Below the pieces are notes generated by a model. That model ran no database searches. It was given only the letters and a program-made list of their open reading frames with translations, and had not been told where the DNA came from. A DNA stretch of 64,000 bases from an uncultured Spirochaetaceae bacterium (GTDB taxonomy: Bacteria; Spirochaetota; Spirochaetia; Sphaerochaetales; Sphaerochaetaceae), in contig CALXLH010000039.1 of the NCBI GenBank assembly GCA_944389145.1, forward strand, positions 1-64,000, in the 5' to 3' direction. Below, in pieces: positions 43,817 to 56,343 of the stretch (the first letter of the stretch is position 1; each line of letters starts with the position of its first letter). The position numbers were made by a program, and so were the translations under genes.

Positions 43817-45466
43817 ATGGTTGAACCATTGAAGAAGAGCGGCAAGATCGAGAGGAAAGGCCCTGTCGTGCTTGTCATAATGGATGGTGTCGGATTCGGA
43901 AAGTATAAGGACGGGGATGCAGTCGCTGCTGCCATGACCGGCAATCTCGATAAGCTCTACGCCACATGCCCGTGGACCAAGCTGAAGGCTCATGGTGTCG
44001 CGGTAGGGCTTCCTTCTGATGCCGATATGGGAAACAGCGAGGTAGGTCACAACGCAATGGGTGCCGGAAGGGTATTCGCGCAGGGTGCTAAGCTTGTCTC
44101 GAATGCGATTTCATCCGGTGATATGTACAAGGGCGCCACATGGCAGAAGCTTGTCAAGAACGCTAAGGATAATGGTTCAACGCTTCATTTCATCGGCCTT
44201 CTTTCAGATGGGAACGTCCATTCCCATATCGATCATCTAAAGGCTATGGTTGCCGAGGCTAAGAAGGAAGGCGTGAAGAAGGTCCGCGTCCATGCGCTTC
44301 TTGATGGAAGGGATGTGGGCGAGGTTTCCGCTCTTGATTACTTCGATCCGTTTGCCCAGTATCTTGCGGAGCTTTCCGCGGATGGCACCTTTGATGCACA
44401 GATCGCATCAGGCGGCGGAAGGATGGTCATAACGATGGATCGCTACAATGCAGATTGGGATATGGTCAAGAAGGGCTGGTATACCCATGTCCTTGGCGAG
44501 GGACGCCAGTTTGCGAGCGCACATGAGGCAATTGAGACGCTCAGGGCCGAGACCGGCGCTATCGACCAGGATCTTCCTCCGTTCGTCGTCGCGAAGGACG
44601 GCAAGCCTGTCGGAACGATCGAGGATGGCGATTCCGTTGTTCTCTTCAACTTCCGTGGAGACCGCGCTATCGAGCTTTCACGCGCGTTCGACGAAGAGGA
44701 TTTCAAGGAGTTTGACAGGAAGAGATATCCTAAGGTGGAGTATGCAGGAATGATGGAGTATGACGGAGATCTTCACATCCCGGCGCAGTATCTTGTATCT
44801 CCTCCTGCTATCGATCGCACCATGGCTGAGTATCTCTGCGCCTCTGGGGTAAAGCAGTTCTCGATCTCCGAGACCCAGAAGTTCGGCCATGTCACATACT
44901 TCTTCAACGGCAATAAGTCCGGTATGTTCGATCCGAAGCTTGAGGAGTATGTCGAGATTCCTTCCGATAAGGTCCCGTTCGAGCAGAGGCCCTGGATGAA
45001 GTGCGCTGAGATCGCTGACCGCGTGATCGCTGAGATCGAGGGCGGCAAGTGGGATTTCATCAAGCTCAACTTCCCCAATGGCGATATGGTAGGGCACACT
45101 GGAGTCTTCGAGGCAGTCGTCTGTTCCATGGAGGGCATGGATCTTCAGATCGGGAGGATCAGGGATGCTGTTGAGAAGGCTGGCGGCGTTATGGTGATAA
45201 CAGCAGATCATGGCAATGCCGATGATATGTATGAGCATGGCAAGGACGGTTCCGTTAAGAAGTATGAGGACGGTGAGCCTAAGGCCAAGACCTCTCACTC
45301 CCTCAATCCTGTTCCATGCATCATCTACGATCCAGGGTATAAGGGAGAGTACTCCCAGAAGCTTGAGGAGGGCCTCGGTATCTCATCTATCGCGGCAACC
45401 TGCATGACGCTTCTCGGTTATGTACCGCCTGCAGATTACGATAAGAGCGTCGTGACGCTTAACTGA
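43817..45466 (+). CDS. gpmI: 2,3-bisphosphoglycerate-independent phosphoglycerate mutase
   Basis: 549 residues. Interconverts 3- and 2-phosphoglycerate in glycolysis with two manganese ions. Alkaline-phosphatase fold: VVLVIMDGVGFGKYKDGDAV, the nucleophile Ser in MGNSEVGHNAMGAGR, LHFIGLLSDGNVHSHIDHL, and the C-terminal metal motif VITADHGNADDMYE followed by KTSHSLNPVPCIIYDP. Start has GGAGGG upstream. Last housekeeping gene before the defence island. Confidence 0.96.
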   Translation: MVEPLKKSGKIERKGPVVLVIMDGVGFGKYKDGDAVAAAMTGNLDKLYATCPWTKLKAHGVAVGLPSDADMGNSEVGHNAMGAGRVFAQGAKLVSNAISSGDMYKGATWQKLVKNAKDNGSTLHFIGLLSDGNVHSHIDHLKAMVAEAKKEGVKKVRVHALLDGRDVGEVSALDYFDPFAQYLAELSADGTFDAQIASGGGRMVITMDRYNADWDMVKKGWYTHVLGEGRQFASAHEAIETLRAETGAIDQDLPPFVVAKDGKPVGTIEDGDSVVLFNFRGDRAIELSRAFDEEDFKEFDRKRYPKVEYAGMMEYDGDLHIPAQYLVSPPAIDRTMAEYLCASGVKQFSISETQKFGHVTYFFNGNKSGMFDPKLEEYVEIPSDKVPFEQRPWMKCAEIADRVIAEIEGGKWDFIKLNFPNGDMVGHTGVFEAVVCSMEGMDLQIGRIRDAVEKAGGVMVITADHGNADDMYEHGKDGSVKKYEDGEPKAKTSHSLNPVPCIIYDPGYKGEYSQKLEEGLGISSIAATCMTLLGYVPPADYDKSVVTLN

Positions 45467-45490
45467 TAAGGAACATCAATCGTGTGTTCA

Positions 45491-45523
45491 CGGCCTCTCG
45501 AAAGGGAGGCCGATATTCTTTCT
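45491..45523 (+). terminator. Probable terminator of gpmI
   Basis: Perfect seven-base stem CGGCCTC (45491-45497)/GAGGCCG (45506-45512) followed by a moderately T-rich stretch. Confidence 0.6.
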
Positions 45524-45568
45524 GCATATGTTTCCGCTATATGAGCGCATATCATGCAGTCATGTTGC

Positions 45569-45740
45569 TAAATTGACAATTCATAGCTCAAATTGTTTAA
45601 TTAAATGGTCTGATGCTCGAATCGCCTCTACGGAGAGTGGTTCATCAATGAGGTCAGGCTTATTTTATCTCAACAGTTTATAGTGTGTTTACATCAATAT
45701 TGCTTATTATTCTGTAAAGCCCTCACGAATAGGCATTTTA
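45569..45740 (-). pseudogene. Degraded 3' fragment of a paralogue of the 163-aa gene (left island edge)
   Basis: The reverse complement of 45607-45671 matches 55410-55476 with two substitutions and a two-base deletion. Weaker similarity continues on both sides (AAGCAATATTGA at 45694 region, and TGTCAATTTA beyond the stop). Translated, it retains KPDLIDEPLS-x-EAIRASD, while the deletion puts a TAA in the run of A residues, so it is no longer a working gene. It points left, mirroring the intact gene at 55014-55505, which points right. Confidence 0.8.
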
Positions 45741-45747
45741 TGTTTTG

Positions 45748-45776
45748 TCGAATATTCGATAAGTTTAAGATACAAT
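45748..45776 (+). promoter_or_regulatory. hsdR promoter region with palindrome TCGAATATTCGA
   Basis: A perfect 12-base palindrome (45748-45759) overlaps the likely -35 region, with -10 TACAAT at 45771-45776 (17 bases after TCGAAT). It would suit a controlling repressor site, but no controller gene lies beside it. Confidence 0.4.
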
Positions 45777-45800
45777 GTGAATTAGTTTTGGGAGATAATC

Positions 45801-48284
45801 ATGACATTTCTGAACCCTGACGAGATAGCTCAGCAGCAGCGTAATGAAGAGACAACAAAGCTTCAGATAATCACGCCGGAGATCCTGAAGAAATGGGATG
45901 ACAAGCGGATAATCATGGAATATGTGTTCACCGATGGGCGTATATCCATCGACGAATATAATGTCGCACATAGGGGAAAGCAGAAGAAGGCTGATTACCT
46001 CCTTCTCCATCGCGACAATCTTATCCTAGCTATCGTAGAGGCTAAGGGACAGGATGTATCGGCAGATGACGGCTATCAGCAGGCTGTGGATTATGCCCGT
46101 ATTCTTGATGTTCCGTTTGCATATGCTACTAATGGCATTGACCTCATCGAGAAGGACATGATATCCGGGCTGAATAAGAAGATGAAGCTCTCCCAGCTTC
46201 CAGGACCTGATGAGCTTTGGGTGCGCTATAAGGCTGAGAAAGAGATCTCTGATGATGAAGAGAATGTCATAACCTATCCTTATTACTACGAGGCTGGCGG
46301 CAAGAAGCCAAGATACTATCAGCGCATCGCCATCAACCGTGTTATTGAGCATATAGTCAAGGGTGAGGATCGTATACTCCTTGTCATGGCTACAGGCACC
46401 GGCAAGACATTTACGGCGTTTCAGATCATCTGGAGGCTCTGGAAGACGCATTTCAAGAGGAAGATCCTCTTCCTTGCTGACAGAAACATCCTTGTTGATC
46501 AGACGATGAGAAAGGATTTCAAGCCATTCACGGACGCTATGGAGAAGATAGATAATGCCAAGATCAATACATCAAAGGATATCTATCTTGCGCTCTACCA
46601 GCAGTTGAAATCTAAGGATACTGATTACTACAAGCGGTTTCCTTCTGATTTCTTCGACCTCATCGTCGTTGACGAATGCCATAGGAGCTCCGCTACCCCT
46701 GATTCCAACTGGCATGAGATACTCGGATACTTCAGCTCAGCAACTCAGATAGGCCTTACGGCAACCCCGAAGGAGACTGGGGTCGCAGAGGCACAGGAAG
46801 AGGAAGCTGAAGCCAAGGAAAGGCTTGAACGTGCAATAATTGCAGGAGAGGTTGCTGAGAAGGAAAGGGCATATAAGGCATTGAAGAAGGCAACGGAGAA
46901 ACGCGAGGAAGCCGAATCTGAATCAAATGCCGCATACTTTGGTAATCCTATATATACCTATTCGCTCAAGCAGGGAATCGAGGATGGATTCCTTGCACCA
47001 TATAAGGTCATATCAGTTGAGCTTGATATCGACAAATACGGCTATAAACCTAAGCCGGGCACGAAGGATATGGATGGCAATCCTGTCGAAGATAGGCGGT
47101 ATTACCAGAACGAGTTTGATAAGAAGATTGTCGTTGTTGATAGGCGTAAGCTCGTTGCGAAGCGCATAAGCGATTACCTCAAGACCAATGACCGTTATGG
47201 TAAGACGATAGTATTCTGCGAGGATATCCCGCACTGCGAGGAGATGGTCCGCTTTCTTGAGAATGAGAATGCTGACCTTGTCGCAGAGGATTCGAGATAC
47301 GTCATGCAGATAACAGGAGACAATGAGATCGGCAAGAAGCAGCTCGATAACTTCGTCGATCCTTCTTCGAAGTATCCTGTGATTGCTGTAACAAGCCGTC
47401 TAATGTCTACCGGGGTGGATGCTGAGACATGTGAGAATATCGTCCTCGACAGGTCCATCGGCAGCATGACGGAGTTCAAGCAGATAATCGGCCGTGGCAC
47501 GAGGATCAAGAAGGAATATGAGATCGATGGTGAGGAGAGGTCGAAGATGTACTTCTCCATCCTCGATTTCAGACGCAACTACCTGAAGTTCCAGGATCCG
47601 TCATTCGATGGCGATCCTGTGACCGTTACGGATGTACCAGAGGGTGGCGACTTCCCGAAGCCACCTGTACGTCCTACTCCGCCTCCTGCCGGCACTCCTA
47701 AACCACCAACAGCCACGAAGCAGATAAGGGTGAATGGCGTCGATGTATCGATCATCGATGAGGAAGTAACGTATCTAGACCAGAATGGCAACCTCGTGAA
47801 GCAGAACCTCGATTCATGCGTCAGGAACAATATCCTCACGCAGTATCCTGACTATGAGGACTTCAGGAAGGCTTGGCTCCTTGCCAAGGATAAGGCGCGC
47901 TTCGCTTCTGAGCTTCTTCTTGATGATGAATGGGGAAAGCGCTTCAAGATCCAGTATGGATACACAGTTGATGACTTCGATATCATCGCGTATCTCGGCT
48001 ATGACATAGAGCCTCCGATGTCGAAGCATCAGAGGACGCATAACGCGGCGATAGCAAGGCTTCTCGATTCGATGGATGACGAGAAGAAAGGAATAGTGAG
48101 GACGCTTCTTGATGCGTATGCGGAGACGAATTTCCAGAACCTCAGGGATATAAAGACGGTATTCTCGATGCCTGCTTTCACGGAGATGGGTTATACGCCG
48201 CTGAAGATAATCAAGGATTATTTCGGATCCAAGGATAAGTATTTTATTTTCCTCAGTGAACTGGAAAACAGGCTATATGAATAA
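45801..48284 (+). CDS. hsdR: Type I restriction enzyme, R subunit
   Basis: 827 residues. Translocates DNA and cuts at collision sites in complex with HsdM2S. N-terminal PD-(D/E)xK nuclease (Asp65 and Glu80-x-Lys82 in ILAIVEAKGQ). SF2 helicase: Walker A ATGTGKT (197-203), DECH box (291-294), TATP (320-323). C-terminal half (LMSTGVDAETCENIVLDR, QIIGRGTR) is helicase domain 2, then an EcoEI-type C-terminal domain. Unusually, about 50 charged Glu/Ala/Lys-rich residues (about 327-376) interrupt the usual join between TATPK and YFGNPIYTYSLKQGIEDGFLAPYKV. SD GGGAGAT upstream. Confidence 0.94.
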   Translation: MTFLNPDEIAQQQRNEETTKLQIITPEILKKWDDKRIIMEYVFTDGRISIDEYNVAHRGKQKKADYLLLHRDNLILAIVEAKGQDVSADDGYQQAVDYARILDVPFAYATNGIDLIEKDMISGLNKKMKLSQLPGPDELWVRYKAEKEISDDEENVITYPYYYEAGGKKPRYYQRIAINRVIEHIVKGEDRILLVMATGTGKTFTAFQIIWRLWKTHFKRKILFLADRNILVDQTMRKDFKPFTDAMEKIDNAKINTSKDIYLALYQQLKSKDTDYYKRFPSDFFDLIVVDECHRSSATPDSNWHEILGYFSSATQIGLTATPKETGVAEAQEEEAEAKERLERAIIAGEVAEKERAYKALKKATEKREEAESESNAAYFGNPIYTYSLKQGIEDGFLAPYKVISVELDIDKYGYKPKPGTKDMDGNPVEDRRYYQNEFDKKIVVVDRRKLVAKRISDYLKTNDRYGKTIVFCEDIPHCEEMVRFLENENADLVAEDSRYVMQITGDNEIGKKQLDNFVDPSSKYPVIAVTSRLMSTGVDAETCENIVLDRSIGSMTEFKQIIGRGTRIKKEYEIDGEERSKMYFSILDFRRNYLKFQDPSFDGDPVTVTDVPEGGDFPKPPVRPTPPPAGTPKPPTATKQIRVNGVDVSIIDEEVTYLDQNGNLVKQNLDSCVRNNILTQYPDYEDFRKAWLLAKDKARFASELLLDDEWGKRFKIQYGYTVDDFDIIAYLGYDIEPPMSKHQRTHNAAIARLLDSMDDEKKGIVRTLLDAYAETNFQNLRDIKTVFSMPAFTEMGYTPLKIIKDYFGSKDKYFIFLSELENRLYE

Positions 48285-48304
48285 TTGATAGGAGAAATCA
48301 ATAA

Positions 48305-49813
48305 ATGGGATTGGAGACTCTTATAAAAAGGCTCAAGGATATAATGAGAAAGGATATGGGTGTCGATGGGGATGCCCAAAGGCTTCAGCAAATCGTCTGG
48401 CTTATATTCCTCAAGATATTTGATTATAAGGAAGAGACGGCTGAACTTGATGACAATTATGTTCCTATAATCCCTGAAGGCTATAGATGGCGGGATTGGG
48501 CCGTAGGAACATCGCTGAAGGACCAGCTGACAGGGGACGAGCTATTAAGCTTCGTCAACAATGTTCTTCTTCCTGTTCTTAGTGGCAACGAGATCAAGGA
48601 CGAGAACGGGAAGATGATTATCCCGTTCGACTCTACGGATGAGCGAAGTATGCTGGTTAAGTCTATTATCCGGAGTTCATCTAATCTTATGCATAATGGA
48701 TATCTTCTTAGGGATGTAGTCAATATTCTGAATGAAGTGGACTTTTCTGACATTAATGACACACATCAGTTCAACATTGTGTATGAGGAATTATTGAAAG
48801 GACTCCAGTCCGCAGGAACGATGGGGGAATTCTATACAGGCCGTGCGATAACACGTTTCGGCATAGATAAGGTCGATCCTCAGATAGGGGGCATGCTTGC
48901 AGATTGGGCTTGCGGAACCGGAGGATTCCTCATCGATGCTCTTAATCATATGAGAGCGCAGGTTGGCAATGATCCTGACAAGCAGAGGATGCTTCAGCAC
49001 GCAGTCCGTGGTGGTGAGTTCAAACCTATGCCATACCGTCTTTGTGTCACAAACCTCCTTCTTCATGACATAGAGCTTCCTGATATTACATATGGTGATT
49101 CTCTCGATCAGAAGAACTTTGCTGATTATAAGGGAGATGACTTAGTGGATTATGCTGCTCTGAATCCTCCATATGGTGGTGTTGCCCTTGAATCTGACCT
49201 CAAATCCTTTCCGGCGAATCTTAGAAGTTCAGAAACGGCGGACCTATTCGTTGCTTTGACAGTTAAGAGGCTTAAGAAGAAAGGACGGGCAGTTATCGTT
49301 CTTCCTGATGGATTCCTTTTTGGCAATGACAATGCGAAGGTAGAGATCAAGAAGTATCTCATGAAGGAGTGCGATCTCCATACGATCATCAGACTTCCTC
49401 AGACATGCTTCTCTCCGTATACATCAATAGCTACGAACCTCCTGTTCTTCGATAAGACAGGGCCTACGGAAGCAATATGGTTCTATCGTCTTGATATGCC
49501 GGACGGCTATAAGCATTTCTCAAAGACAAAGCCTATGAGACGTGAGCATTTCGCTCCTGTTGATGAATGGTGGGATAACCGCACTGAGATAAAGGATGCG
49601 GATACCGATACCTACAAGGCTAAGAGATATACCATCGATGAGATACAGGCCAATGGCTATAATATCGACCTCTGCGGATATCCAACAGCTGTTAAGGAGA
49701 TACTCTCACCAGAAGATACGATAAGGAACTTCATGGAGCACAGAGCAACGCTCAATGAGAAGCTCGATAAGCAGCTTCATGACATCCTTGCTCTCATGGA
49801 GGGACAGCAGTGA
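48305..49813 (+). CDS. hsdM: Type I restriction-modification, M subunit
   Basis: 502 residues. Adenine-N6 methyltransferase that protects host DNA. N-terminal HsdM_N domain (about 1-150), SAM-binding motif I DWACGTGGFL (200-209, Trp replacing the commoner Pro), catalytic NPPY at 287-290. FYTGRAITRF-type motif is present upstream (EFYTGRAITRFGIDKV). AGGAG upstream of the ATG, 20 bases after hsdR. Overlaps hsdS by four bases. All core catalytic residues look intact, so the system is probably active. Confidence 0.95.
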   Translation: MGLETLIKRLKDIMRKDMGVDGDAQRLQQIVWLIFLKIFDYKEETAELDDNYVPIIPEGYRWRDWAVGTSLKDQLTGDELLSFVNNVLLPVLSGNEIKDENGKMIIPFDSTDERSMLVKSIIRSSSNLMHNGYLLRDVVNILNEVDFSDINDTHQFNIVYEELLKGLQSAGTMGEFYTGRAITRFGIDKVDPQIGGMLADWACGTGGFLIDALNHMRAQVGNDPDKQRMLQHAVRGGEFKPMPYRLCVTNLLLHDIELPDITYGDSLDQKNFADYKGDDLVDYAALNPPYGGVALESDLKSFPANLRSSETADLFVALTVKRLKKKGRAVIVLPDGFLFGNDNAKVEIKKYLMKECDLHTIIRLPQTCFSPYTSIATNLLFFDKTGPTEAIWFYRLDMPDGYKHFSKTKPMRREHFAPVDEWWDNRTEIKDADTDTYKAKRYTIDEIQANGYNIDLCGYPTAVKEILSPEDTIRNFMEHRATLNEKLDKQLHDILALMEGQQ

Positions 49814-51309
49814 TAGGAATCTGTGAAGACCTCAGAAAATCAGTACTGCAGGCAGCTATTCAAGGCAAGCTTACACAGCAGCTTCCGGAAGATGGGGATG
49901 CAGAGGCTCTCTATGCTGAAATCCAGAAAGAGAAGCAGAAGCTCATTAAGGAAGGAAAGATCAAAAAGGAGAAGCCGCTACCTGAAATAACCGAGGATGA
50001 TATTCCGTTTGATATCCCGGAGAATTGGAAGTGGGTTCATGTCGGAGAAGTAGTAAAGAATGTACAATATGGTACTGCTAAAAAATCATCAAAAACGGGG
50101 CTCATTCCGGTATTGAGGATGGGCAATATTCAGAACGGCAAGATTGACTATTCAAATCTCGTCTATACTTCTGATGTAGATGAGATAAGCCATTACGCAT
50201 TACAGAAAGATGATTTACTTTTCAATCGTACCAACAGCAGAGACCAGGTTGGCAAAGTAGCAATCTATAAAGCAGAAATGCCTGCAATTTATGCCGGCTA
50301 TCTTGTTCGTATAACTCCTGTTCAAGTTGATTCTGATTATATCAATTATGTTATGCAGACATCTTATTACTGGGAATACTGCCAAGCTGTTAAGAGTGAT
50401 GCTATTGGCCAGTCCAATATTAATGCAGAGAAGTTGAAAAACTTTATTTTTCCGCTTCCTTCTCTTCCTGAGCAGAAACGCATCGTTGCACGTGTCGATG
50501 AGCTCATGAAGAGAATCGATGAGATGGAGAAGACGGAGAAGGATATCACAGCGCTGTATGATGCGTTCCCGGGGGATATGAAGGCATCGCTTCTGCAGGC
50601 GGCGATACAGGGAAAGCTCACTGAACAGCTGGCATCGGATGGTGATGCAGAGACGCTGTATGTTGATATCCAGAAGGAGAAGCAGGGGCTTATCAAAGAA
50701 GGGAAGATCAAGAAGGAGAAGCCGCTTTCGGAGATATTAGAGGATGATATCCCGTTTGATATCCCGGAGAAATGGAAATGGGTAAGACAAGCAGAAGTCT
50801 GTAGAATTTATACAGGTAACAGTATTCCTGAACATATTAAACTTGAAAAATATATGAAGTCAGGTATTGAGGGGTACAACTATATTGGTACAAAAGATGT
50901 TTCTTTTGATCATGTAATCGATTATGAGAATGGTGTACGCATCCCGTATTCTGAACAAAGGTTCAAGCTCGCTCCTGAAGGATCAAGCCTTATTTGTATA
51001 GAGGGAGGAAGTGCGGGTAAAAAAGTAGGTTTTCTCTCACAGACTGTTTGTTTTGGTAATAAGCTATGTATGTTTAACCCGTATCTTATTGAACAGAAAT
51101 ATATTTACTATTGGTTGCAATCTCCAACCTTTCTTGAAAGCTTCTTTGAAAGAATGAATGGCATTATTGGTGGAGTAAAAATAAATGCTCTTTCTAATAT
51201 TATTATGCCATTGCCTCCTCTTGAAGAGCAGAAGCGCATCGTCGAGAAGCTGGATCAACTACTACCTCTCTGTGATTCCATGAAGGAGGCCATAGATGCC
51301 ACGGCCTAA
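49810..51309 (+). CDS. hsdS: Type I restriction-modification, specificity subunit
   Basis: 499 residues. Two target-recognition domains (about 75-210 and 325-470), each with the FPLPPLEEQKRIV-type end (FPLPSLPEQKRIVARVDEL and MPLPPLEEQKRIVEKLDQL) and each preceded by nearly the same conserved segment (QAAIQGKLT...GDAE...IQKEK...EGKIKKEKPL...DDIPFDIPE-WKW). That 75-residue duplication is also clear in the DNA (about 49840-50040 and 50590-50790). Such direct repeats permit domain swapping with other hsdS genes. GTG start overlaps hsdM. DNA specificity is not readable. Confidence 0.94.
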   Translation: MIGICEDLRKSVLQAAIQGKLTQQLPEDGDAEALYAEIQKEKQKLIKEGKIKKEKPLPEITEDDIPFDIPENWKWVHVGEVVKNVQYGTAKKSSKTGLIPVLRMGNIQNGKIDYSNLVYTSDVDEISHYALQKDDLLFNRTNSRDQVGKVAIYKAEMPAIYAGYLVRITPVQVDSDYINYVMQTSYYWEYCQAVKSDAIGQSNINAEKLKNFIFPLPSLPEQKRIVARVDELMKRIDEMEKTEKDITALYDAFPGDMKASLLQAAIQGKLTEQLASDGDAETLYVDIQKEKQGLIKEGKIKKEKPLSEILEDDIPFDIPEKWKWVRQAEVCRIYTGNSIPEHIKLEKYMKSGIEGYNYIGTKDVSFDHVIDYENGVRIPYSEQRFKLAPEGSSLICIEGGSAGKKVGFLSQTVCFGNKLCMFNPYLIEQKYIYYWLQSPTFLESFFERMNGIIGGVKINALSNIIMPLPPLEEQKRIVEKLDQLLPLCDSMKEAIDATA

Positions 51310-51321
51310 GAGAGAAGGACA

Positions 51322-51414
51322 ATGGAAGACAATCAATCTGCAGATATCAGCAGATCCTTAAAATCTGTGCTGGTATCAAAGATACGTCTTGGAAAAGCGC
51401 GGAGTGATGAATAA
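51322..51414 (+). CDS. Possible small peptide, 30 aa
   Basis: ATG at 51322 with AAGGA four bases upstream opens a 30-codon frame ending at 51414. The peptide is polar and unrecognised. It sits between hsdS and the DUF262 gene and could be a short translated leader or chance. Confidence 0.25.
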   Translation: MEDNQSADISRSLKSVLVSKIRLGKARSDE

Positions 51415-51432
51415 GAAGGAGAGACAACTTAT

Positions 51433-53208
51433 ATGAATTCTATGCTTTATCAGAGAGCAGATTATAAATTAGATGCTTTGCTATCGGATATCGAAACAGG
51501 TGTATTGGGACTTCCAGATCTGCAGCGACCATTTGTATGGCAAAACATAAAAGTCAGAGATCTTCTCGACTCGATGTTAAGAGGATATCCGATAGGGTAT
51601 CTAATGCTCTGGGATGCTCCTGATGATATCAACAAAGAGAAGCAGATAGGAATCGAAGAACACACAATCAAGGCTCCAAGACAGTTGATTATTGATGGGC
51701 AGCAACGTCTTACTTCCTTATATGCAGTCATGTATGGAAAGGAGGTCTTAGATTCACGTTTCCAGAAGAAGATGATCAGTATTGCCTTCAATCCATTGAA
51801 AAGAATATTTGAAGTAACGTCTGCAGCACATCGTAGAAGCGCTGAGTGGATTCCCGATGTCAGTGTTGTTTTCAGAAACTCAGGGAAGGCATATACATTC
51901 ATTGGAAGTTTCATCGCAAAACTTTCTGAATATAGGGTACAGAATGGTAATCCTCTCACACAGGAAGAAGAAGATCTTATTGCAGATAATATCCAGGCAT
52001 TGCTTTCGTTGAAGGACTACACTGTTCCAACGTTGACTATATCGAACAAGACTGATGAGGAAGCAGTAGCCGATATATTTGTTCGAGTGAATTCCAAGGG
52101 AAAGTCTCTTAATGAGAATGATTTTATCCTTACACTAATATCAGTTCATGATGAATCTGTAAGAAGGAAAATTGAGAAATTCTGCAGTGATGCTCTCATT
52201 CCCGTTGCTTCTGGAACGTCATACAATCAGCTTTTTACACCAAAGGCATCCCACATAATAAGAGCTGTTATGGCTTATGGCTTTAAGCGAGCAAGGCTCC
52301 GTTATGCATATATGGTTCTTGAAGGCAAGGATCTTTCGACCGGTCTGTATGATTCGTCACTGCGAGATAAGATGTTTGATCAGCTAAGGGTAAAGCTTGA
52401 TATTGTTCTCAATCTTTCAAATTGGCATGATTTCATGAATTGTCTTATTTCTGCAGGATATGTTTCATCAAAGCTGATAGCAGCTGATAATGCAATCGTC
52501 TATACGTATGTGATGTATCTGATTGGTCTTTGCGATTTCAAACTTGATAGGATAGAGCTAAGGAAGCTTATTGCCTTATGGTTCTATATGTCAGCAGTAA
52601 CGATGCGCTATTCAATATCGACCGAAAGTACAGTTCAGTCAGATCTGAACGACATTGGAAAGCTCACTACAGCTGATGAATTCAGGAGCTATATCATGCA
52701 GCGTATTGAAGAAACGTTCACTGATGATTTCTTTGCAATACAGCTTCCTGTGAATATGGAGACTTCAGCTGCAATCAGTCCATCGTGGAACGCATATTGT
52801 GCCGCACAGAATATCCTAGGAACAGATGCTATGTTTTCTTCTGTTCCACTTAAGATCTTGTTCTCTCCTGGTTCAGGTGGGAGTAAATCATCTATCGAGA
52901 AGCATCATCTATTTCCTCGTGCATATCTTCCGACTATAGGTTATTCAAGCCAGCAAGAAATTAATCAGATTGCCAATTTTGCTTTCATAGAATGGCCTCG
53001 CAACATCGCAATATCTGATGAAGCGCCTTCTGTATATTGGCTCCAGATTATATCTTCAATGAGTACAGATGTGATAAGAAAGCTATGTGATGAGAACGCT
53101 CTTCCTGAAGGTTGGGAGAGTATGGATTATCCAGAGTTCTTGGATGCAAGACGCCATCTGATGGCTGATATCGTGAAACGTGGATATAAAGCTCTTCTGG
53201 TGTTGTGA
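51433..53208 (+). CDS. DUF262/HNH protein, GmrSD-like restriction factor
   Basis: 591 residues. N-terminal DUF262 with its ParB/Srx-like signatures LPDLQRPFVW (about 27-36) and LIIDGQQRLTSLYAV (85-99), the nucleotide-hydrolysing part of GmrS-type proteins. ADIFVRVNSKGKSLNENDFILTLIS is another hallmark. The C-terminus has an HNH-like EKHHLFPRAYL (489-499), resembling DUF1524/GmrD nuclease. This is the one-chain arrangement of type IV-type systems that attack modified phage DNA. AAGGAGA precedes the ATG. Probably part of the island's defence repertoire and co-transcribed with hsdS or started nearby. Confidence 0.85.
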   Translation: MNSMLYQRADYKLDALLSDIETGVLGLPDLQRPFVWQNIKVRDLLDSMLRGYPIGYLMLWDAPDDINKEKQIGIEEHTIKAPRQLIIDGQQRLTSLYAVMYGKEVLDSRFQKKMISIAFNPLKRIFEVTSAAHRRSAEWIPDVSVVFRNSGKAYTFIGSFIAKLSEYRVQNGNPLTQEEEDLIADNIQALLSLKDYTVPTLTISNKTDEEAVADIFVRVNSKGKSLNENDFILTLISVHDESVRRKIEKFCSDALIPVASGTSYNQLFTPKASHIIRAVMAYGFKRARLRYAYMVLEGKDLSTGLYDSSLRDKMFDQLRVKLDIVLNLSNWHDFMNCLISAGYVSSKLIAADNAIVYTYVMYLIGLCDFKLDRIELRKLIALWFYMSAVTMRYSISTESTVQSDLNDIGKLTTADEFRSYIMQRIEETFTDDFFAIQLPVNMETSAAISPSWNAYCAAQNILGTDAMFSSVPLKILFSPGSGGSKSSIEKHHLFPRAYLPTIGYSSQQEINQIANFAFIEWPRNIAISDEAPSVYWLQIISSMSTDVIRKLCDENALPEGWESMDYPEFLDARRHLMADIVKRGYKALLVL

Positions 53209-53266
53209 TTGTTTTCGACCGAATATATTTGGTTTGGATGGGCATAGGAATCCTTGATTTATGACA

Positions 53267-53295
53267 TTGGTCTAACATGGTAGATAATTTATATT
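53267..53295 (+). promoter_or_regulatory. Promoter of the OLD-like nuclease gene
   Basis: -35 TTGGTC (53267-53272), 17-base spacer, -10 TATATT (53290-53295), 12 bases to the ATG. The expected leader is only a few bases, so the GGAG next to the -10 box may not be transcribed. Confidence 0.45.
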
Positions 53296-53307
53296 GGAGA
53301 AAACAAC

Positions 53308-54969
53308 ATGAACGTATTTCTGCCTTATAGTTTTACATTCAATGGTTATAAATGTTTCAAAGAAGTAAATAGCCTTCCGTGGTTTAAGTCTTTTAATGTC
53401 ATAATCGGTCGTAATAATTCAGGGAAATCATCTTTCATTGATATAATCCATTCTCTTTGCGATGCAAATTTCCGTGCAAGTATTTCTAAAGATATTAGAA
53501 TAACAATGAAATACAGAATTGATGGATATGAATACTTTGATCTCGATAATCTTGATTTGCAGATTTACAGAAATAGAAGTTTAACTCTTTCTTATTTTGG
53601 CTTGCATTTTATTGGTAAAGAACTAATAGCGGATGTAAGCTTAAAACAACATAACTCTGGATATAACAATTCATATGATATAGTATCTGGAAAAAGGTAT
53701 GACATAGATAATAACATAGTATTATTAAAGTTAAATGATGATACTATGCTTGATCCTTTCAACAATTCAGTTTTCAGATGTGTATCAAGTGAAAGAGATA
53801 TCACCCCAGAGGCGTTCTTTTCTGGTGCAGACCAAATCGATATAGATTCTAATGGTATAGGAACAACCAGATATGTCTGCTCGATACTTAATAATAAGAA
53901 TAAGAAAGATACAATCATACAGGAAGATGTGCTAAACGCTTTTAATGAGATACTTGGTACTGATGGTCATTATAGAAACATAAAGGTTAAGCAGGATAAT
54001 GGTGATAATTGGGAAATTGTCTTAGAAGATGATGATAAAAACCAATACCAGATATCAAAGTTAGGAAGCGGACTGAAAACCATTCTGATGGTACTTTTGA
54101 ATCTAATTGCTATTTCAAATGATTTCAAAGACAAAACCATGGTATTTGCTTTTGAAGAGTTGGAGAATAATCTTCATCCTGCATTAGAGAAGCGACTATA
54201 TTCTTACATATTCAATTATGCCCAGAAAAATAATTATATGATTTTCCTGACAACACATTCCCCGGTCGCAATAGATATGTTTTCAAGAGAAGAATCTGTC
54301 CAATTCTATAAGACAGAGAGAAATTCTAGTGGCTATCAAATTGTTCCGATCTCAAGTTTTGATGATTCAATTGAAGTAATAGACGATCTAGGGATTAAAG
54401 CCAGTGATCTCTTACAAGCAAACGGCATAATATGGGTAGAAGGGCCTTCTGATAGGATATATATCAAGAATTGGCTAAATGCGAAGTATTCTGGAATTTT
54501 TGAAGAGGGAAGGGACTACCAATTCGTTTATTATGGGGGAAGATTGTTGGCCCACTATACTGCATGTGACCCTATGAAAGAAGAAGTCGATAGCTATATC
54601 AATGTCCTCGCGGTAAATTCAAAGGCTTTCTTTGTGATGGACAGCGATCAGGATTCTCTTGATGATCCCTTGGATAAACGTAAAGAACGTATAATACAAA
54701 GACTCAAAGAGAAAGATATGGCTTATTGGGTTACAAAAGGCAGGGAGATAGAGAATTATCTTGATTTATCGAAAAGCGGCATTCAGCTAGGGCAATTTGA
54801 TAAATTGGAAGATATGCCTAAGATGGCGAACTTCGATAAGATCAATTTTGCAAGGCAACATCATGGAGATGTAGATTTCAATAAATACAATTTAAATGAG
54901 GATTTAAAATTGTTGGCGAATGAAATCGCAAGATGGAATGGTAGAGAGTTGCCTGCTGATAAATGCTGA
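53308..54969 (+). CDS. OLD-family ATPase-TOPRIM nuclease
   Basis: 553 residues. N-terminal SMC/RecF-like ATPase with Walker A GRNNSGKSS (34-42) and a downstream Walker B-like segment MVFAFEELENNLHPALEKRL (about 277-296) plus LTTHSPVAIDMF. C-terminal TOPRIM: WVEGPSDRIYIKNWL (about 376-390) and FFVMDSDQD (about 440-448), with the acidic residues expected for metal-dependent cutting. Proteins of this build defend against phages, as OLD of phage P2 or GajA of Gabija do. No GajB-like helicase is adjacent. Strongly AT-rich compared with the chromosome, a sign of transfer. Confidence 0.85.
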   Translation: MNVFLPYSFTFNGYKCFKEVNSLPWFKSFNVIIGRNNSGKSSFIDIIHSLCDANFRASISKDIRITMKYRIDGYEYFDLDNLDLQIYRNRSLTLSYFGLHFIGKELIADVSLKQHNSGYNNSYDIVSGKRYDIDNNIVLLKLNDDTMLDPFNNSVFRCVSSERDITPEAFFSGADQIDIDSNGIGTTRYVCSILNNKNKKDTIIQEDVLNAFNEILGTDGHYRNIKVKQDNGDNWEIVLEDDDKNQYQISKLGSGLKTILMVLLNLIAISNDFKDKTMVFAFEELENNLHPALEKRLYSYIFNYAQKNNYMIFLTTHSPVAIDMFSREESVQFYKTERNSSGYQIVPISSFDDSIEVIDDLGIKASDLLQANGIIWVEGPSDRIYIKNWLNAKYSGIFEEGRDYQFVYYGGRLLAHYTACDPMKEEVDSYINVLAVNSKAFFVMDSDQDSLDDPLDKRKERIIQRLKEKDMAYWVTKGREIENYLDLSKSGIQLGQFDKLEDMPKMANFDKINFARQHHGDVDFNKYNLNEDLKLLANEIARWNGRELPADKC

Positions 54970-55013
54970 TTTAACAGTATGGATTTAACCTAAAGAAGAA
55001 CTACGATAGGCCA

Positions 55014-55505
55014 ATGAAAAAGACTGTTTATGCTGCTAACAATGAACAAGCCACCTATTATCTAAAGAAGCATCAAGGTGAGAATATAAAGAATATCGAA
55101 GATGGAACTATTGCTCGGTATGGATCAGTTGGCCGTAATAAGATGATTTCAAACAAAGCCCGTGAAAAGTCTTTGAAGAATGGTTTTACTCCTCAAGAAC
55201 ATAACACAGCAGCTGCTAATATTGCCATCCTATATGAACATGGGCATAAGCTCGTTGAGCGGCCTGACAGAAAAGGGAATAATGATGTTCGAATAAGATA
55301 CTACGAAACCGGTATTGAGTTTTATCCTTCGGGGAAGCTTGGATATGCTCAGATAATGATGAAGATGAGCAATATTGAGGGTAACACGCTATATACAATC
55401 GAACTTGTCGAGATAAAAAATAAGCCTGACCTCATTGATGAACCACTCTCCGAAGAGGCGATTCGAGCGTCAGACCCTAAGATTAAATTACCATCAGAGC
55501 CATGA
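55014..55505 (+). CDS. Unknown 163-aa protein, partner of the OLD-like gene (right island edge)
   Basis: 163 residues, unrecognised. Basic N-terminal half (KNIEDGTIARYGSVGRNKMISNKAREKSL) and a beta-rich C-terminal half (VRIRYYETGIEFYPSGKLGYAQIMMKMSNIEGNTLYTIELVEIKNK) ending in an acidic KPDLIDEPLSEEAIRASD segment. No membrane segment. It begins 44 bases after the OLD-like gene, same strand, so probably one operon. A mirrored, broken copy of its 3' end lies at 45569-45740. Could be a regulator, antitoxin or phage-sensing partner. None can be shown. Confidence 0.7.
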   Translation: MKKTVYAANNEQATYYLKKHQGENIKNIEDGTIARYGSVGRNKMISNKAREKSLKNGFTPQEHNTAAANIAILYEHGHKLVERPDRKGNNDVRIRYYETGIEFYPSGKLGYAQIMMKMSNIEGNTLYTIELVEIKNKPDLIDEPLSEEAIRASDPKIKLPSEP

Positions 55506-55517
55506 AATGTCAATTTA
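55360..55517 (+). repeat. Right arm of the island-flanking inverted repeat
   Basis: The 3' end of the 163-aa gene and 12 bases after it. Its best part, 55410-55476, is 63 of 67 positions identical to the reverse complement of 45607-45671. The arms are about 9.7 kb apart and enclose hsdRMS, the DUF262 gene and the OLD-like gene. Confidence 0.8.
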
Positions 55518-55578
55518 ATGCTCTTTCCCCTTTATGATCCCAATTTTCATGCCTAGTCTGAAATCGTCTTCATTTCCT

Positions 55579-56343
55579 TCAGAACGTCTGCCTTGATGAT
55601 ACAGATAGCATCGCTACTCCTATCAGGTAGAGAATGATCGCTATCGTTCCTGATATATAATCCGTTCCTAACGATATCAGGTTGCCAGACATCAGGAGGA
55701 TGTAGCTGATCGCTCTTCCTGGAGTATGGGTTGCCCTGTCCTTTACTACTGCCATCGCATATGTAAGCGCGGCTATTATGCACATCACTACCAGCGTCAG
55801 GGCTATGTATGCGTCGTTGGATGATGAGAATAGGGTGGTTCCCGTGCTGTCTGTGCTGATCGGAGCGGCTATTGAAAGGAACACGGCAGCAAGGAGGCTG
55901 AGCGTAAGGTAGAGCCTGTTGCGTGAGTTGTTTATGCCGAAGAACTGGATAGCGGCGAATACGAATATCACGGAAGTGCCAAGGATCGCGAAGCGGGCAA
56001 TCATCACCACTGCGATAGGGGAGAGCAGCGTTACTCCTGTCACCTCCTGATACAGAGGGAAGATGTATGTCGCCTCAAGGGCTATGAACGTGAAGAGAAG
56101 AGGAAGGAGGGAGCCTTCCTGCGTGTGCGCCCTATGCCGTATGCGCAGTATGAACTGCAGCACCACTGATGCTATGATGATCACGAGCTGAGGCAGGTAG
56201 ACTATGAGAGTGATCGGCCAGTTCGTGAAGTTTCCTGATATCAGGACGATGGTCATATGGATCAGCATCGCGCCATATACCAATGATATCAGCATTTGCA
56301 GGACAAGTGCCGCTGTCCCTGATTTCTTCCGTTCCGTGGCCAC
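55579..56343 (-). CDS. Integral membrane protein of unknown function
   Basis: 254 residues with about seven hydrophobic segments (for example AALVLQMLISLVYGAMLIHM, LVIIIASVVLQFIL, LLAAVFLSIAAP, YIALTLVVMCIIAALTYAM). No family was recognised. GTG start abuts the stop of the symporter gene, so the two are co-transcribed and perhaps act together in the membrane. Confidence 0.75.
   Translation of the reverse strand: MATERKKSGTAALVLQMLISLVYGAMLIHMTIVLISGNFTNWPITLIVYLPQLVIIIASVVLQFILRIRHRAHTQEGSLLPLLFTFIALEATYIFPLYQEVTGVTLLSPIAVVMIARFAILGTSVIFVFAAIQFFGINNSRNRLYLTLSLLAAVFLSIAAPISTDSTGTTLFSSSNDAYIALTLVVMCIIAALTYAMAVVKDRATHTPGRAISYILLMSGNLISLGTDYISGTIAIILYLIGVAMLSVSSRQTF

Follow-up and report, generated by a model that had tools for sequence, protein, structure and literature searches.

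The window analysed here is a stretch of 64,000 nucleotides (nt) from an uncultured Spirochaetaceae bacterium (contig CALXLH010000039.1, positions 1-64,000). It carries an island of defence-related genes whose two ends display the same sequence in inverted orientation. At the right end this sequence is the 3′ end of a 163 amino acid (aa) gene of the LPD3 family, and the strand opposite to it displays a predicted gene for a small, structured antisense RNA. The LPD3 gene and the antisense RNA gene (termed the LPD3/RNA unit) may together represent a mobile module of a toxin and its antitoxin. The components of the two copies are:

55014-55505, forward strand: LPD3 protein gene, 163 aa, intact (right copy); Pfam PF18798, 39 bits, under purifying selection
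55416-55477, reverse strand: predicted antisense RNA of the right copy, about 62 nt, a hairpin with an AUCAAU internal loop and a U-run; model R1, 102 bits
55485-55490, reverse strand: predicted −10 box TAATTT of the right copy, preceded by TGG
55508-55513, reverse strand: predicted −35 box TTGACA, 17 nt from the −10 box, where the LPD3-unit homology stops
45569-45707, reverse strand: remnant of the second (left) LPD3 gene copy, truncated and frameshifted; by alignment to the right copy
45606-45667, forward strand: predicted antisense RNA of the left copy, complete; model R1, 95.8 bits
45573-45601, forward strand: predicted promoter of the left RNA, TTGACA (45573-45578), 17 nt, TTTAAT (45596-45601); by promoter score

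LPD3 units and the embedded antisense RNA gene

Positions 55410-55476 match the reverse complement of 45607-45671 at 63 of 67 columns, as the first-pass annotation of this DNA had claimed; the alignment has a single 2-nt gap. Realignment bears out that the similarity extends beyond this core: the whole inverted similarity comprises 55365-55517 and 45707-45569 (123 of 155 columns identical, 18 gap columns). The longest exact run between the arms is 36 bp, and the arm-to-arm local score is 62, against 14 or less in 200 shuffles. The two arms are the only copies found in the 2.13 Mb assembly. A repeat of the repetitive extragenic palindrome (REP) or miniature inverted-repeat transposable element (MITE) type was ruled out, as a genome contains only one copy or two.

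The right arm corresponds to the 3′ end of the 163-aa gene. The annotation was correct as to the length of this gene, but not in calling it unknown: with 39 bits against a gathering threshold of 27 it is a member of Pfam LPD3 (PF18798). The left arm is a second LPD3 copy. It is frameshifted, as had been noted, and also truncated; its protein frame is thus lost, and its RNA gene is complete.

In nearly all copies the homology of the LPD3 unit stops at a TGTCAATTTA-like sequence about 12 nt past the stop codon. This conserved boundary, TGTCAA, is the predicted −35 box of the antisense RNA. On the strand opposite to LPD3, the right copy displays in order TTGACA, 17 nt ending in TGG, TAATTT, a hairpin, and then TTATTTTT. 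The hairpin is GTCTGAC-G-CTC...GAG-GTCAGGC with an asymmetric AUCAAU loop, and the promoter is sigma70-like (TTGACA-N17-TAATTT). Promoter-like sites are conserved across copies, mostly with the 17-nt spacing, and that of the left copy (TTGACA-17-TTTAAT) has the second-highest promoter score among 22 copies.

Over these 22 copies, one of which comes from another genus (G063) and one from L165, a viral contig of 40 kb (67 bits), 97.9% of cells are paired, compared with 31–44% in slid controls. A single member served to draw the structure, so that pairing is overstated for its close relatives but not for divergent copies. Six stem pairs have changed on both sides (compensatory changes) where 1.8 are expected, and none of 500 shuffles reaches this number. 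On the antisense strand the stem cells comprise 63 G-U and 3 A-C, therefore the antisense strand is the selected strand. Folding energies agree in strand: z is −3.86 for the antisense strand of the right copy (0 of 200 shuffles) and −3.58 for that of the left, versus −1.19 and +0.15 for the sense strands.

The coding sequence also shows the constraint. In five intact LPD3 genes the synonymous divergence (pS) is 0.65 over codons 1-133 and drops to 0.03 over codons 136-153, i.e. over the hairpin. An unrelated pair of genes (L195/L196) shows a drop from 0.66 to 0.11 over its hairpin and a further pair (L193/L194) from 0.76 to 0.27; in the pairs L195/L197 and L196/L197 the drop is weaker. The pair L175/L177 was left out of the synonymous counts, the tail of one copy being in another frame. 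The structure of the LPD3 protein is not an obvious cause of this 3′ constraint, because residues 142-150 have a predicted local distance difference test score (pLDDT) below 50 in the AlphaFold model (tail pLDDT 46). Thus the RNA gene, its strand and the selection on it can be read from the sequence, and an antisense RNA gene embedded in LPD3 is almost certainly real. A search of Rfam gave no match to the antisense RNA element; it would represent an RNA family absent from that database.

Over codons 1-133 of the same five relatives the nonsynonymous divergence (pN) is 0.078 against the pS of 0.65, therefore purifying selection acts on the LPD3 protein. Its residues E62, H63 and R86 are conserved. 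Two structure models, made for LPD3 proteins of different lineages (pLDDT 84 and 94), show helices followed by four strands. The first VIA-align match of both divergent models is 6cp9, the tRNase of the contact-dependent growth inhibition (CDI) system of Kp342 (Z = 4.7 and 4.9; 9–12% identity), and the second matches are toxin-antitoxin complexes (7vd7, 3hi2). With the better model, 6cp9 is also the top Foldseek match (probability 0.94–0.97 for its three chains; 0.57 or less for the other matches listed). Many rows of the structure searches are NTF2-like folds at low probability, and no function was read from them; a sequence search of solved structures with LPD3 gave nothing credible. The Kp342 CDI toxin is a tRNase of the BECR fold, with five helices and four strands (PMC9086364). 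The phage relative in L165 belongs to the polyvalent proteins and also carries an ART domain. LPD3 is described here as a domain of phage polyvalent proteins that probably has an RNase-toxin fold of the BECR type, and the models favour, with some reserve, an RNase-type toxin. The paper in which LPD3 was named gives no function for it and does not mention an antisense or small RNA (PMC5512222).

Recurrence in related genomes and across the Spirochaetota

LPD3 genes of the window type (about 82–89% identical protein in well-preserved copies), or remnants thereof, are present in eleven other congeners. They occupy about nine different sites, mostly between housekeeping genes. A restriction locus adjoins the unit only in G017, and elsewhere its neighbours are mostly housekeeping genes, so it does not mark island edges. 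An inverted partner is not general: the other copies are mostly single, and G021 has a second solo copy, on the same strand, 14 kb away.

Three arrangements may be noted. In G017 (L091:3245-9691) the unit and another hsdRMS locus are placed head-to-head, an arrangement that the window shows for the left remnant and hsdR. In G035 (L092:10846-13215) it is convergent with a second LPD3 gene, for which no antisense gene was found and which overlaps a phage integrase gene at the latter's end. Two contigs of G012 (L096:1-379, L103:1-208) end inside LPD3, as a multi-copy element or a strain-variable site would.

Every intact LPD3 gene of this type has the RNA. The core of about 60 bp is also found without LPD3, with 84–95% identity, and in about eight genomes the RNA is present without a window-type LPD3. 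G006, G023, G033, G038, G043 and the left copy of the window have a broken or truncated LPD3 frame, and only traces of it are left in G063; copies with a broken frame keep the RNA body and mostly the promoter as well. An RNA that outlives its protein would show the asymmetry expected of an antitoxin, and neutral readings of these sequences are possible too. In G014, G018 and G009 (L142:264-835, L145:1501-2051, L143:1501-2152) the solo RNA stands behind one and the same gene for a small secreted protein (155–157 aa). Because of this shared neighbour the solo RNA may be an old element of the 3′ untranslated region there. In other families the model has two distant matches (G305, G353), which resemble ordinary terminators and were rejected, as was the single match of a viral pattern scan, a chance match in a P2-like phage.

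LPD3 (PF18798) is found in 32 of 393 sampled Spirochaetota genomes, both as short genes (many of 137–212 aa) and as domains inside polyvalent genes of 1000–3000 aa. One rule was applied to all windows: a hairpin closed by a U-run, with a good promoter ahead, on the antisense strand and just past the LPD3 domain. Such an antisense gene lies directly past the domain in 20 of 28 non-redundant LPD3 genes (<60% identity), compared with 9 of 332 control windows (Fisher p = 8e-20); by the same rule the sense strand gives 3 of 28. An earlier form of the rule gave 20 of 29 against 11 of 344 controls, with 2.7 expected from shuffles. Promoters of these antisense genes include:

L211: TTGACA-17-TATAAT
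L210, L217, L218: TTGACA-17-TATATT
L207: TTGACA-17-TATACT
L194: TTGACA-16-TATAAT

The stems of the antisense genes found across the phylum are unrelated in sequence. The divergent G027 and the phage contig L187, for example, display a similar architecture with wholly different stems. The link of the RNA gene with LPD3 is thus phylum-wide, and the pairing of the two spans standalone chromosomal genes and giant polyvalent genes.

The domain PBECR3, taken for comparison, has an antisense gene in 4 of 17 cases (2 of 200 controls), therefore the antisense-RNA link is strongest for LPD3 and perhaps not exclusive to it. In L225 (G392 contig 10) a PBECR3-containing polyvalent gene has an antisense promoter and a 17-bp stem past the domain, a hint that further RNase modules of phages may come with RNAs of this kind. 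Separately, a chromosome-sized Neisseria gonorrhoeae record filed among plasmids (L219:1501-1854) has a frame resembling LPD3 (about 117 aa, counted from where the match begins) with no listed gene and no antisense RNA gene.

The island and its insertion hotspot

The unit lies in a larger insert between two convergent genes:

45467-55578, no strand: insertion hotspot between convergent gpmI and a 254-aa gene (d254), which are neighbours in most congeners and have unrelated inserts between them in others
43817-45466, forward strand: gpmI, left flank of the hotspot
55579-56343, reverse strand: 254-aa gene (d254), right flank of the hotspot
45801-51309, forward strand: hsdR, hsdM and hsdS (type I restriction-modification), acquired cargo; domain matches, low G+C
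51433-53208, forward strand: DUF262/GmrSD_N protein, acquired cargo; domain matches
53308-54969, forward strand: OLD/GajA/AriA-like ATPase, acquired cargo; domain matches

In most of 48 congeners gpmI and d254 are convergent neighbours, often 40–100 bp apart, and in others the gap holds unrelated inserts of 0.45–6.6 kb. The G+C content is 34–45% in the island versus 52–53% in its flanks. The 10.1 kb insert is an acquired island, one more occupant of a genus-wide hotspot; here the first-pass annotation holds, as it does for the defence-related content (type I R, M and S genes, the DUF262/GmrSD_N protein and the OLD/AAA+ protein).

Neither a transposase nor an integrase was seen among the island genes, and no significant direct repeat was found at the window copy of the unit. 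Direct repeats at unit ends, suggestive by eye, are significant only in G006 and G038. A base-level comparison with empty sites of congeners gave no alignment, the intergenic DNA appearing too diverged.

Two further observations concern the cargo. The hsdS gene contains two 198-bp direct repeats (49839-50036 and 50586-50783, 79% identical) in the usual two-half layout, and no recombinase gene was seen near them. A weak Rfam match to the cow-rumen-1 RNA inside the OLD gene (54006-54065, 22.4 bits against a gathering score of 53.4) is probably due to chance.

Interpretation and comparison with known systems

It is proposed that a copy of a mobile unit stands at each end of the island, the unit being an LPD3 gene whose 3′ end also holds a structured antisense RNA gene. 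Of the two copies, that on the right would be intact, and that on the left would have lost the protein frame but kept the RNA gene. The RNA would start at the sigma70-like promoter at the 3′ end of LPD3, fold into the hairpin and end at the U-run. It would most likely be the antitoxin of LPD3, acting by one of two routes: it may pair with the 3′ end of the LPD3 mRNA and promote its decay, as SR6 does with yonT, or, in view of the conserved AUCAAU internal loop, it may bind LPD3 directly. This loop, together with the solo RNA copies, also leaves room for binding to another target. The unit would have come to lie in the gpmI/d254 hotspot beside the acquired hsdRMS, DUF262 and OLD genes. Expression, toxicity, the antitoxin role and the mode of movement we infer from sequence.

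Alternatively, the RNA may be real and not an antitoxin, i.e. a phage-derived regulatory or decoy RNA, or a 3′-end processing or terminator element merely carried with LPD3. This would suit the solo copies, which stand where unrelated genes end and of which some have no promoter, as well as the unpaired AUCAAU, which is kept in nearly all close copies and exceeds the needs of a purely cis-acting antisense RNA. It is nevertheless considered unlikely, as the LPD3 link spans the phylum despite unrelated stem sequences and promoters stand ahead of the hairpins in most LPD3 copies. Conservation of the 3′ end at the protein level only, as a conserved C-terminal tail, would agree with the presence of the tail after the LPD3 domain in the phage polyvalent protein. 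Synonymous divergence over the hairpin is far from normal, however (pS 0.03), and this, the copies with broken or absent frames and the low pLDDT of the tail make the reading extremely improbable.

The first-pass annotation had offered two readings of the arms. That of two related modules is close to right. The other, that the ends are recombination or insertion boundaries of a composite element whose 9.7 kb might invert, would suit arms that face outwards at the island edges and share the 36-bp exact run. The inverted repeat is probably not a recombination boundary: in congeners the unit sits elsewhere in the chromosome without an inverted partner or a consistent bracketing direct repeat, its conservation tracks the RNA gene and not a recombination site, and, of the features of a composite transposon, no transposase was seen in the island and no significant direct repeat at the window copy. 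Inversion or recombination at these ends is thus very unlikely. An integron attC-like site, with LPD3 as a gene cassette, would account for palindromic ends on the 3′ side of a mobile gene and for the bulged base. This is scarcely credible, since the core triplets are GTC/GAC or ATC/GAT and not GTT/AAC, an integron integrase exceeds the cut-off in 0 of 48 genomes, a promoter and U-run are present, and the same element occurs inside polyvalent genes.

Several points tell against the toxin and antisense-RNA module. A strict consensus scan calls neither promoter nor terminator on the right copy. The thresholds of the phylum scan were tuned after the first examples, with identical ones used for the controls. 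Among LPD3 relatives outside the Spirochaetota (Helicobacter phages, the Neisseria record, Parabacteroides, phage WC36-2) an antisense gene is found in 0 of 6. The solo copies in G014, G018, G041 and G045 have no convincing promoter and may be plain 3′-end terminators. The structural Z of LPD3 with 6cp9 is below 5, which is weak by itself.

On balance a mobile LPD3 toxin and antisense-RNA module in an insertion hotspot appears to be the best explanation of the locus as a whole and is the favoured one; that LPD3 and the RNA function as toxin and antitoxin is favoured by a slightly smaller degree. The apparent island boundary would be explained without recombination. LPD3 lacked a known function, and the conserved embedded antisense RNA suggests a toxin in need of silencing. 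In addition, selection acts here on an RNA gene on one strand and on a protein frame on the other strand of the same DNA. The recurrence across spirochaetes points to an unrecognised family of toxin-and-antisense-RNA modules. It is tentatively suggested, as a possibility a little short of probable, that most LPD3 modules of Spirochaetota and their phages consist of an RNase toxin of the BECR type and an antisense-RNA antitoxin embedded in its gene, either mRNA-pairing or protein-binding, and that the orphan chromosomal RNAs are antidotes.

With respect to known classes, an RNA gene antisense to a protein gene, as in type I systems, is seen here at the sequence level (structure, strand asymmetry, synonymous suppression and promoter-like sites). 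Type III systems have an RNA antitoxin of tandem repeats, encoded upstream of the toxin gene and in the same direction, whereas the LPD3 unit has a single antisense hairpin at the 3′ end. A classical type I toxin is usually small and hydrophobic (SymE excepted). LPD3 is a 163-aa alpha/beta domain and is therefore not filed as a classical type I system. The CdiA-CT toxin of Klebsiella pneumoniae 342 (PDB 6CP9) displays the same order of helices and then four strands as the LPD3 models, a likeness with the low Z and identity given above, but it is neutralised by an immunity protein and not by RNA.

The yonT/SR6 pair (and txpA/RatA) of Bacillus subtilis prophages is comparable to the LPD3 unit: a small antisense RNA, transcribed from a promoter of its own (extended −10), overlaps the toxin 3′ end, as the predicted RNA with its promoter-like site would in LPD3, and the pair is carried by a prophage (PMC5848175). 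About 65 nt of the yonT 3′ end are covered by SR6, which works through RNase III (PMC5848175). With 58 aa, the yonT toxin is a peptide, in contrast to the 163-aa probable RNase LPD3. Unlike SR6, the LPD3 RNA lies within the coding region, has a strong structure and is also found inside giant polyvalent genes.

In Escherichia coli SymR overlaps the 5′ part of symE, whereas in the LPD3 unit it is the 3′ end that is overlapped. The fold of SymE is of the AbrB type (PMC1891008), and LPD3 shows no resemblance to SymE. The two systems are alike in that a toxin, a role that LPD3 would fill, is under a cis-encoded antisense RNA in a restriction-modification island setting (PMC1891008), and members of the SymE/SymR family are found in mobile islands with restriction-modification genes (PMC1891008).
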